A stretch of DNA of 64,000 bases from an uncultured Chloroflexota bacterium (GTDB lineage Bacteria; Chloroflexota; UBA11872; UBA12225). The DNA lies in contig CADCTC010000001.1 in assembly GCA_902805635.1 (NCBI GenBank), positions 62,001 to 126,000 of the forward strand, in the 5' to 3' direction. A model generated the notes under the pieces. The model had not been told where the DNA came from, did no database searches, and saw nothing but the letters and a program-made list of their open reading frames with translations. Of the stretch, positions 41,678 to 45,620 are shown one piece after another; the stretch's first letter is position 1; every line of letters begins with the position of its first letter. The position numbers were made by a program, and so were the translations under genes.

Positions 41678-41760
41678 GCGGAAGTGGTGAAATGGCAGAC
41701 ACGCCAGCCTTAGGAGCTGGTGCCTGAAAGGGCGTGAGGGTTCGAGTCCCTCCTTCCGCA
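41678..41760 (+). tRNA. tRNA-Leu, anticodon TAG
   Basis: GCGGAAG..CTTCCGC acceptor, CCAGC-CTTAGGA-GCTGG anticodon arm, long variable arm, GGTTCGAGTCC T-arm; no encoded CCA. Confidence 0.95.
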
Positions 41761-41811
41761 CTCTAGTTACAGCCCGCTGGTCATCATCCTTATGTATAGT
41801 CTCCACCTTCC

Positions 41812-43554
41812 GTGGAGTCGGGTGAGTCGGGCGTCAGGACGGTACGGCCGTGGTCGCGCGCCGGCGAGCGCTACGCCGGTCCATCGTGGCCGCGAGCGGA
41901 AGAGAGGGCGCGCGGCCCGCGCGTGCGGGATCGACGGACTGCGTACCGCACCGCGTCCGCTGACGCACTTGAGACGGTGGCACGCTGGGACGCTCTGATC
42001 CGCGAGGCGGAGCGCATCTTCACTGCCCCTGATTTCTCCGAGCGCGAGCTGCACCCCGTCCTGGACGTGGCCGAGCTGCTGCGCCGGGCACGCGGCGGGG
42101 CGCTCTCACGCGCGCGCCGCCACACCTGGCGCACCCACCTCCAGCGCGCCCTCGACGCGGCGCTCGAGGCCGGCATCCCGCCACCCGAAGGGGCCGGAGC
42201 GCGTCTGCTGGAGTGGTGCACCACGGCGCCAGACGACGCGCGGGAGACGCTGCGCGCGCTGTGGGAGGATGCCGGGATCTCCCCCGTCGATCACGTCAAC
42301 CTCTTCCTGCAGGTGCTGCCCCCCACCGTCGCGCGCGAGCCCGACACTCGATTGGCGCTCGCTTCCTTCCTGCTCAGCGCGCTCGATCCCACCCGCTATC
42401 CCCCCTACGAGCCGGCCGCCATCGCCGCCGGGTATGCACTGAGTGGGAGTGACGCTGTTCCAGCGGATGATGACGGCGGCACGGTCTACCGCCACGCCCT
42501 GGACGTGCTTGACCGGGTTGTCTCGGAGGCCGCCGCCCGCGGCCTGCCACTCCGCCACCGGCTGCACGCATCGGCCATCCTGCGACGGTTCCCGCCGACT
42601 TCCGAATTGCGCCCACACGCCGCCGGCATCGCCGAGGCGCGCGCCGACTACCACGCGACAGACGCTGCGCCACAGCCCGCCACCCTGGCCGAGCTCGCCC
42701 AATCACTCTTCGTCGAGGAGGCGGAGCTGGCCAAGGTCCGGCGCCTGTTGGAGGACCGCGGACAGTGCGTCTTCTACGGCCCGCCGGGCACGGGCAAGAC
42801 CTACGTCGCGCGTGCCCTGGCGCGCTTCCTGTCCGTTGGTGACGCGCGAGTCGAGGTCATCCAGCTCCACCCTTCTTATGCTTACGAGGACTTCGTCGAG
42901 GGCTACCGCCCCGTCGTGGCAGCGGATGGCAGCCAGGCGAGCTTTCAGCTTGTGGATGGGCCGCTAAAGCGGTTCGCCGCCGCTGCGCGCAGTGACCCTG
43001 GGCACACCTATGTACTGGTCGTGGACGAGTTGAACCGTGCCAACGTCGCCAAGGTCTTCGGCGAGCTCTACTACCTGCTGGAGTACCGCGACGCCGCGAT
43101 CACCCTGCAGTACTCCGCCGCGCCGTTCGCCTTGCCACGTAACCTGCTGGTCATTGGCACCATGAACTCAGCCGACCGCTCGATCGCGCTGGTGGACCTG
43201 GCGCTGCGCCGCCGCTTCTATTTCATCCCGTTCTTCCCGGACGAGCCGCCTGTGGCCGGACTGCTGCGCCGCTGGCTAGGCGTGACCCACCCCACGCTGC
43301 TCTGGCTCGCGGACGCGGTTGACCGCGCCAATGCCCTGCTCGGCAACCGCGACGCCGCCATCGGCCCCAGCTACTTCCTGCGCTCCGACCTGGACGAGTC
43401 CTGGATCGAGCTGATCTGGGAGCATTCCATCCTTCCCGCGCTGGCGGAGCAGCTCTCCGGCGACCCGCGCGACCTGGCCGAGTTCCAGCTGCTGCGCCTG
43501 CGTCAGTCACGCCCGGCGAGCCCCACGCGCGGCTCTCGCGCCGCACGCCGCTGA
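41812..43554 (+). CDS. McrB-like AAA+ GTPase/ATPase of a type IV (McrBC) restriction system
   Basis: VFYGPPGTGKTYVARALARF; VIQLHPSYAYEDFVEGYRP; YVLVVDELNRANVAKVFGELYYLLEYRD; GTMNSADRSIALVDLALRRRF; start codon uncertain. Confidence 0.9.
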   Translation: MESGESGVRTVRPWSRAGERYAGPSWPRAEERARGPRVRDRRTAYRTASADALETVARWDALIREAERIFTAPDFSERELHPVLDVAELLRRARGGALSRARRHTWRTHLQRALDAALEAGIPPPEGAGARLLEWCTTAPDDARETLRALWEDAGISPVDHVNLFLQVLPPTVAREPDTRLALASFLLSALDPTRYPPYEPAAIAAGYALSGSDAVPADDDGGTVYRHALDVLDRVVSEAAARGLPLRHRLHASAILRRFPPTSELRPHAAGIAEARADYHATDAAPQPATLAELAQSLFVEEAELAKVRRLLEDRGQCVFYGPPGTGKTYVARALARFLSVGDARVEVIQLHPSYAYEDFVEGYRPVVAADGSQASFQLVDGPLKRFAAAARSDPGHTYVLVVDELNRANVAKVFGELYYLLEYRDAAITLQYSAAPFALPRNLLVIGTMNSADRSIALVDLALRRRFYFIPFFPDEPPVAGLLRRWLGVTHPTLLWLADAVDRANALLGNRDAAIGPSYFLRSDLDESWIELIWEHSILPALAEQLSGDPRDLAEFQLLRLRQSRPASPTRGSRAARR

Positions 43555-43567
43555 GCGCCCCACGCTT

Positions 43568-44830
43568 ATGGTGGCTTCCATGCGCCGCCTGACGCTGGTC
43601 GAGCATCAGACCGCCCACGCGGTCCAGTTGACGCGTGCCCAGCGCGCTGCGCTTCAAGGGGCGGTGCCGGAGATTGCCATCTCTCCGGGCGTTCGGGCGG
43701 GCTGCTTCGACGTTACTCCCGGCGCCTGGGTCGGCGTCGTCGCCCTGGACGGGCTGGCCGTGGAGATCCGCCCTAAACTGCCGTTGCGGAACGTGCTCTT
43801 CCTGGCATCGTATGCTGCCGGCTCCGACGTGTGGCGCGATACGCGTGTGGACCTCGCCGAGCAGGACTCGCTGGTCGAGCTTGTGGCCTCGCTGTTCGCG
43901 ACGCACGTCCGCCGCGCGCTGGCGGTGGGGTTGCTCCAGGGTTACCGCACCGAAGATGCGGCGCTGCCCACGGTGCGCGGGCGCCTGCGCTTCGACCAGC
44001 AGGTGCGCTCTCGGTTCGGGCAATTCCCACCCGCCGAGGTGCGCTACGACGTGCTCACTGAAGACATCGTCGAGAACCGGCTGCTCAAGGCGGCACTCGT
44101 CCACTTGCTCGGGGTGTCGCTGCGGTCCCCGGACACGGTGGCCACGCTGCGGCGCCTGCTCTCGCGGTTCGAGCGGGTGGAGCCGTGGCGTTCTCACCGC
44201 GCCGGTGTCCCCACTGTGGCCTATTCGCCCCTCAACCGGCGCTACCGCCCCGCGCTCGAGCTCGCCCGGCTGATCCTGCGTGATGCTTCGCTCGACCTGG
44301 GCGCCGGGAGTGCGCCCGGCGCCTGCTTCCTATTGGACATGGACCGCGTCTTCGAGGACTTCATCACGACTGCGCTGCGCGATGCCCTCGATCTCTCGGT
44401 CCGCGCCTTTCCGCACGGCTGTGCCGGGAGGCAGCTTACGCTGGATGCCGCGTCGTCACTGCCGCTGCTGCCGGACCTCTCGTGGTGGGAGGATGGACGT
44501 TGCGTGTTCGCCGGCGACGTGAAGTACAAGCGCACCCGCCACGGCGAGCAGGCCGACCTGTACCAGGTGCTCGCCTACAGCACCGCCGCGGGCCTCCCGG
44601 CCGGCCTGCTTGTCTATGCCGCCGGTCCCGACCATCTCGCCGCCACGTACGGCATGCCGGGCCAGCTGGCCGTCCACGAGGTGCCCCACGCCGGCAACAC
44701 CGGCAAGGCGCTGCACGTCACCGCACTCGACCTCAACGGCTCTCCCTCCGACATCCTCGCGCAGGTCGCCCTGCTCGCCCAGCGTGTCCGCCGCCTACGG
44801 CTCGCCGTCCGCGACCACGCAGTGGCCTGA
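43568..44830 (+). CDS. McrC-like 5-methylcytosine restriction component
   Basis: VEIRPKLPLRNVLFLASYA; ALAVGLLQGYRTEDAALPTVRGRLRFDQQVR; C-terminal PDLSWWEDGRCVFAGDVKYKRTRHGEQADLYQVLAYSTA nuclease-like motif. Confidence 0.88.
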   Translation: MVASMRRLTLVEHQTAHAVQLTRAQRAALQGAVPEIAISPGVRAGCFDVTPGAWVGVVALDGLAVEIRPKLPLRNVLFLASYAAGSDVWRDTRVDLAEQDSLVELVASLFATHVRRALAVGLLQGYRTEDAALPTVRGRLRFDQQVRSRFGQFPPAEVRYDVLTEDIVENRLLKAALVHLLGVSLRSPDTVATLRRLLSRFERVEPWRSHRAGVPTVAYSPLNRRYRPALELARLILRDASLDLGAGSAPGACFLLDMDRVFEDFITTALRDALDLSVRAFPHGCAGRQLTLDAASSLPLLPDLSWWEDGRCVFAGDVKYKRTRHGEQADLYQVLAYSTAAGLPAGLLVYAAGPDHLAATYGMPGQLAVHEVPHAGNTGKALHVTALDLNGSPSDILAQVALLAQRVRRLRLAVRDHAVA

Positions 44831-44870
44831 CGCCCCCCCTATGTGCGCTTCCTCTGAGAGAGGCCGCCGC

Positions 44871-45209
44871 ATGATTTACGATCAATCCAGATTGGTGCCC
44901 CCTGGCGTGCCGGACACGCCCATCGCGCCCGGCATCAGCCAGCTTGCCTCCACCCTGGGCGAGTACGCCCTGCCGCCGGTGGTGCGCGGCAAGGGGCGCC
45001 TGTTCGTCACCCTGCTCAACGCCTCCAGCCGCGTCTTCGGCCGTTCCGGCGGCCGGAACAGCGAGCGCGCCGTCAACCAGCGCACCGAGGCCACCGCGCC
45101 GCTACTCGGCGCGCCGCTACTCGGCGCGCCGCCGGTGGCCGCTCTGCCTGCGGTCAATGGCACCGCCGAACACGCGCGCCCAGAAGTCGGCGAAGCCGTC
45201 TCTCCGTAG
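44871..45209 (+). CDS. Hypothetical small protein downstream of mcrC-like gene
   Basis: MIYDQSRLVPPGVPDTPIAPGISQLASTLGEYALPPVVRGKGRLFVTLLNASSRVFGRSGG... Confidence 0.45.
   Translation: MIYDQSRLVPPGVPDTPIAPGISQLASTLGEYALPPVVRGKGRLFVTLLNASSRVFGRSGGRNSERAVNQRTEATAPLLGAPLLGAPPVAALPAVNGTAEHARPEVGEAVSP
45096..45125. repeat. 15-bp x2 perfect tandem repeat within small ORF
   Basis: GCGCCGCTACTCGGC x2 (LLGAP-LLGAP). Confidence 0.95.
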
Positions 45210-45266: not shown

Positions 45267-45295
45267 TTGACATAATCCAGCATTCCGCATAAGAT
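45267..45295 (+). promoter_or_regulatory. Sigma-70-like promoter
   Basis: TTGACA (45267-45272), 17-bp spacer, TAAGAT (45290-45295). Confidence 0.65.
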
Positions 45296-45300
45296 ACGTC

Positions 45301-45518
45301 TCCGGTGTACCGTCACGTGACGCCTCATTTGCCCGTCTTGAAGACCCAGCGGCGCAGCCAGAATCGCCAAGCCACGCCGGCCGCAAGCCGGCCGGTGCGC
45401 CTCGCGGGGCGGTGGCGTGCTGCAGGCGCGCGTGCGAGCGGAGGCTCCCTCCGTTAGTCGCGCTCCCGCTGCATGTCACCTGATTAGCCCGCTACGGCGC
45501 CACCCGTAGCGGGTTTTT
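45301..45518 (+). ncRNA. Candidate structured ncRNA or rtcB leader (class not identified)
   Basis: Bounded by promoter and intrinsic terminator; nested perfect stems (45421-45425/45469-45473, 45426-45430/45459-45463, 45439-45444/45448-45453) and G/C hairpins at 45371-45416. Confidence 0.45.
45488..45518 (+). terminator. Rho-independent terminator
   Basis: CCCGCTACGG-CGCCAC-CCGTAGCGGG-TTTTT, perfect 10-bp stem plus T tract. Confidence 0.9.
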
Positions 45519-45620
45519 CTTTGCCGGCCGGCGGCGGGTCCGCTGAAGGCCCGACACGTGCGGAAGACACCAGGACACCACAGACAGCACAGCACTACAC
45601 GGGGACAAAGGAGTCACCCA

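Follow-up and report, generated by a model that had tools for sequence, protein, structure and literature searches.

Background

In Salmonella, the rsr-yrlBA-rtcBA operon contains genes for Ro60 and Y RNAs and is controlled by RtcR, and Y RNAs are located in some rtcB operons (PMC7790460). The element described here, which lies directly 5' of an rtcB gene in a 64-kb window (the whole stretch of DNA that was analysed), resembles that operon (PMC7790460) in having a possible non-coding RNA near rtcB and a Ro60 gene in the same genome. It differs in that Ro60 is found on another contig and in that the element has no tRNA-like domain. With orphan intergenic bacterial sRNAs the element shares a sigma-70 promoter, an intrinsic terminator, a length of about 215 nt, an intergenic position and a non-coding character by codon test, although it is known from sequence alone and has neither a homologue nor a target. 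Attenuator leaders provide a second comparison, as they too place a promoter, a structured stretch and a terminator ahead of a gene on the same strand. The element, however, has no antiterminator beyond chance, no coding-like leader peptide and no conservation at orthologous rtcB genes. The length of 6S RNA (RF00013) is the same, but the predicted fold of the element lacks the long rod with its central bubble, and the 6S sequence blocks are missing. Judged as a whole, the element is a genuine-looking transcription unit with a predicted RNA of no detected conservation, and the original sequence observation is confirmed.

Promoter and terminator signals upstream of rtcB

The sigma-70-like promoter proposed in an earlier, sequence-only reading of this DNA proved correct in its coordinates (Table 1), with the -35 box TTGACA at 45267-45272 and the -10 box TAAGAT at 45290-45295 separated by a 17-bp spacer. 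It matches the consensus at 10 of 12 positions and is the sole site on either strand of the window to reach at least 10/12, a quality for which dinucleotide shuffles give a chance expectation of 0.1 sites per strand per window. A search of the whole assembly for the exact pattern TTGACA-N16-18-TANNAT gave 14 occurrences, and a reversed-pattern control gave 0; such sites are therefore very likely to be real promoters in this organism. Several of the 14 are directly 5' of open frames, and one is ahead of a tRNA cluster. The promoter at the head of the element is itself very likely real.

The textbook terminator claimed for the other end, a perfect 10-bp stem followed by T5, is borne out as the sole strong intrinsic terminator of the window. 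Its stem joins 45488-45497 to 45504-45513 around a loop at 45498-45503, precedes T5 at 45514-45518, and comprises 12 pairs when extended to 45486-45515. A perfect 10-bp stem with T5 occurs once on the plus strand of the real window and in none of 20 shuffles, and this terminator ranks best on either strand. Its folding z-score is -5.2, with a predicted probability of 0.94-1.0 for each pair of the stem. Neither the promoter nor the terminator is expected by chance in window DNA, which is 69% GC.

Table 1. Positions of the element, its parts and its neighbours (window coordinates), and of two similar units elsewhere in the genome
Feature	Position	Strand	Evidence or remark
Small ORF, 112 aa, coding-like, between mcrC and the element	44871..45209	+	Codon score 0.19, GC3 0.85
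Sigma-70-type promoter, TTGACA-N17-TAAGAT	45267..45295	+	Sequence; start of transcription expected at about 45302-45304
Predicted non-coding transcript, about 215 nt	45302..45518	+	Predicted from the two signals; non-coding in six frames; no Rfam match
Palindrome CGTCACGTGACG	45311..45322	+	Sequence
Pair of GC hairpins closed by GCCAC/GTGGC, alternative to the long hairpin	45371..45416	+	Sequence
Long interrupted near-palindromic hairpin with CGGAGG-CTC-CCTCCG tip	45411..45480	+	Minimum-energy fold
Intrinsic terminator, 10-12 bp stem, 6-nt loop, T5	45486..45518	+	Sequence, folding, shuffles
rtcB, RNA ligase, 415 aa	45621..46868	+	Pfam RtcB PF01139, E = 2.5e-111
About 90-nt unit 1	L156:1496-1640 (G000:C63:36019)	+	Strong promoter, hairpin, terminator
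About 90-nt unit 2	L158:1391-1535 (G000:C115:43748)	-	Strong promoter, hairpin, terminator

Promoter and terminator stand on one strand with about 190 bp between them. In agreement with the earlier claim that no convincing ORF lies in this interval, a codon test of 45302-45481 in six frames found no coding signal, and a leaderless 50-codon GTG ORF at 45305-45457 was rejected as not coding-like (codon score -0.11). The sequence signals thus give good support to the prediction of a non-coding transcript with its own start and end.

A scan of approximately 1.29 Mb of the genome scored 20 strong promoters, 3 of which have a strong terminator no more than 350 bp downstream. These three are the element in the window and a pair of near-identical units, each about 90 nt long and with a hairpin carrying a GNRA-type loop (GCAA or GAAA) followed by the terminator ACCCCTCGGA(T/C)GGGCCGCAAGGTTTGTTCGAGGGGTTTTTG. 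The genes 3' of the two units, named by eye, are an apparent short-chain dehydrogenase and an apparent sugar-binding lipoprotein. The units have no match in Rfam and are absent from the viral contigs and plasmids searched; they may represent a repeated sRNA or attenuator. The first 54 nt of the element past the -10 box are identical to a unit at 28 of 54 positions, which 3 of 5000 shuffles reach, and that place scores best, at 29/54, among 127,892 window positions. A profile search with nhmmer did not recover this similarity, and the outer stem of the unit is not kept in the element. As the profile gives no confirmation, kinship between the element and the 90-nt units is not claimed.

Folding of the predicted transcript

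The perfect stems listed in the sequence-only reading are all present but cannot all form together, because bases 45412-45416 are common to the GCCAC/GTGGC-closed pair and the long hairpin, which makes these two mutually exclusive. When the whole transcript is folded, the minimum-energy structure retains the long hairpin and the terminator and drops the GCCAC/GTGGC-closed pair. Folding z-scores are -3.9 for 45302-45522, -2.0 when the terminator is removed and +0.7 for 45302-45410. Taken by itself, the long hairpin reaches -3.7, as a region picked after the fact. Among 5114 80-nt windows scanned, many outside the element reach z-scores of -4 to -6, and no window from the element ranks in the top 30 on its strand. 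Since many other windows fold as well or better, folding energy is no good evidence of selected structure beyond the terminator. In these predictions, it is mostly the terminator that makes the element more stable than chance, and the remaining fold is ordinary for GC-rich DNA. Of the proposed structured RNA with its own promoter and terminator, the signals of a transcription unit stand, but selected structure is not supported. The minus strand of the long hairpin also matches the covariance model built from the element itself; as this hairpin is nearly palindromic, the strand is set by the promoter and terminator only.

We give about an even chance to the reading that the element encodes a stand-alone, lineage-specific orphan RNA. 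Transcription would start at the sigma-70 promoter and stop, about 215 nt on, at the element's own intrinsic terminator. Stabilised by its long hairpin and terminator stem, the RNA would then accumulate as a stand-alone small RNA and act, if at all, in trans; its location 5' of rtcB would be either incidental or a source of low-level rtcB expression from read-through. This reading draws on the conjunction, on one strand and about 190 bp apart, of the only strong promoter and the only strong terminator of the window, on the promoter pattern counts in the assembly and the rarity of strong promoters with a nearby terminator, and on a non-coding interval that ends in a stable terminator whose best antiterminator competitor (below) is no better than shuffles. 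It is weakened by the ordinary folding outside the terminator, by the failure of every collection searched to yield a homologue, and by a position directly 5' of rtcB on the same strand, which would equally suit a leader.

Search for relatives and comparison with known RNAs

Rfam, searched at the gathering cut-off and at E-values up to 10, returned no family and only matches far below cut-off, and the lack of a match to several known RNA families, noted by eye beforehand, holds at the curated cut-off. No DNA homologue was found in 61 relatives, 41 genomes of the class, 399 genomes of the phylum, 72,556 plasmids or 50,697 phage records. These searches returned short GC-rich matches only, and the two best matches in the phylum are inside long open reading frames. 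The exact core of the element does not occur in the viral contigs. A single-sequence covariance model run over the class recovered the element, its own near-palindromic minus strand and two matches at E 0.3-0.6; the element itself is the only convincing score. With no homologue in any collection searched, there is no sign of selection on the RNA. Conservation or covariation among relatives, which the sequence-only reading had named as its own test, was not observed among the genomes searched, none of which is of the same genus. At the level of the family, eight other genomes were covered. A young element would escape such a search, and the negative result does not disprove function.

Could the element be a known RNA that has diverged, for instance 6S or a bacterial Y RNA? 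Its length is about right for 6S, and 6S was not detected by Rfam in this genome. Of the five families in the class, Rfam finds 6S in a single one, where all five genomes have it; the remaining 36 genomes of the class give no match. A class-specific model built from those five 6S genes had no convincing match in any other class genome, where 6S has either been lost or diverged beyond the models. On the element this model scores at most 10 bits, on the terminator, as compared with 151-181 bits for its own members. Given also the lack of an RF00013 match and of the conserved 6S blocks, the element was rejected as 6S. As for a Y RNA, the genome does encode Ro60, and Y RNAs are known from some rtcB operons (PMC7790460), but the element contains no tRNA-like part such as the domain of YrlA, and neither Ro60 nor RtcA is among the neighbours examined. 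With no Rfam match near the cut-off, a diverged known RNA is scarcely probable.

The Ro60 (TROVE) gene itself is found on another contig (L122; G000:C74:2546-6439) beside tRNA genes. Upstream of it are tRNA-Glu, tRNA-Asp and a tRNA-like stretch scoring 28.9 bits, just under the cut-off, all behind a strong promoter at G000:C74:3391. This arrangement suggests the Ro60 locus as a place to look for the Y RNA or tRNA mimic of this organism.

Relation to rtcB

The terminator had been placed about 100 bp before the rtcB ATG, and the distance from its end is indeed 102 bp, on the same strand, with a Shine-Dalgarno sequence, AAAGGAG, just 5' of the gene. Between the terminator and the ATG there is no sigma-70-like site, so that the promoter of the element is the last one before rtcB and a leader controlling RtcB is possible. 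The promoter would then be that of rtcB itself, most transcripts would stop at 45518, and a signal, be it protein, processive antiterminator or RNA-damage ligand, would allow read-through. We regard such a terminating 5' leader as rather unlikely, though a serious contender. That both 90-nt units are also ahead of genes is consistent with a leader, but the pairing tests count against one. The best antiterminator competitor by simple pairing is equalled by 200 of 1000 shuffled leaders, and this, together with the near-certain pairing predicted for the terminator stem, makes attenuation of the simple switch type less likely. By eye, 45316-45337 seemed well suited to sequester the rtcB ribosome-binding site, but this was rejected as no better than shuffles; the pairing that the 5' segment forms with the rtcB start site is equalled by 612/1000. 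Pairing of the whole transcript with the start site is reached by 41/1000 leader shuffles and 114/1000 target shuffles, and it occupies bases of the long hairpin. Neither ribosome-site pairing nor an antiterminator is clearly beyond chance.

Orthologues likewise speak against a leader. No similar leader or promoter-terminator arrangement is present upstream of the nearest rtcB orthologues inspected in the phylum (46-53% identical), and the comparison of upstream regions advised in the earlier reading thus yielded no common leader. Close homologues of the window rtcB are patchy in the family, as evidenced by a match at E < 1e-30 in 1 of 8 genomes. Of the two functions that reading had left open, stand-alone sRNA or RtcB leader, a separate start and stop are retained, but leader control finds neither an antiterminator beyond chance nor a leader at orthologues. 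The more ambitious proposal, a new class of terminating leader RNA that tunes RtcB to RNA damage and is present in unsampled close relatives, has a slim chance of being right. A real RNA that acts on rtcB would mean RNA-level control of an RNA-repair gene, for which PMC7790460 describes control by a protein, RtcR; an RNA that is only an orphan sRNA would be one of many. Either way, the element is a clean and easily tested transcription unit.

Neighbouring genes

The genes upstream of the element are on the same strand, which raises the alternative that the terminator is punctuation, shielding rtcB from an operon of mcrB, mcrC and the small ORF, with the promoter a relic or a source of low-level read-through and the RNA functionless. 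The unconserved, ordinarily folding RNA part would fit this alternative. A promoter matching the consensus at 10/12, however, is rare in window DNA and unlikely to persist by drift, and the terminator is situated 277 bp past the small ORF and downstream of the promoter. We hold punctuation to be improbable.

The small ORF belongs to no family in Pfam, NCBIfam or PADLOC, and its matches in the family and class were discarded as spurious, being antisense to transporter permease-like genes. From 41678 to 45209, the window contains tRNA-Leu (41678-41761) and, immediately after it, an mcrB-like gene, mcrC and the 112-aa ORF. This looks like the arrangement of a tRNA-side defence island, the ends of which were not found.

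Two further rtcB genes were noted. One, at G000:C4:6512-7786, gives the same genome a second RtcB, 39% identical to that of the window. The other, elsewhere in the phylum (L129:1-1500; G288:C44), comes after seven predicted tRNA genes that form an array.
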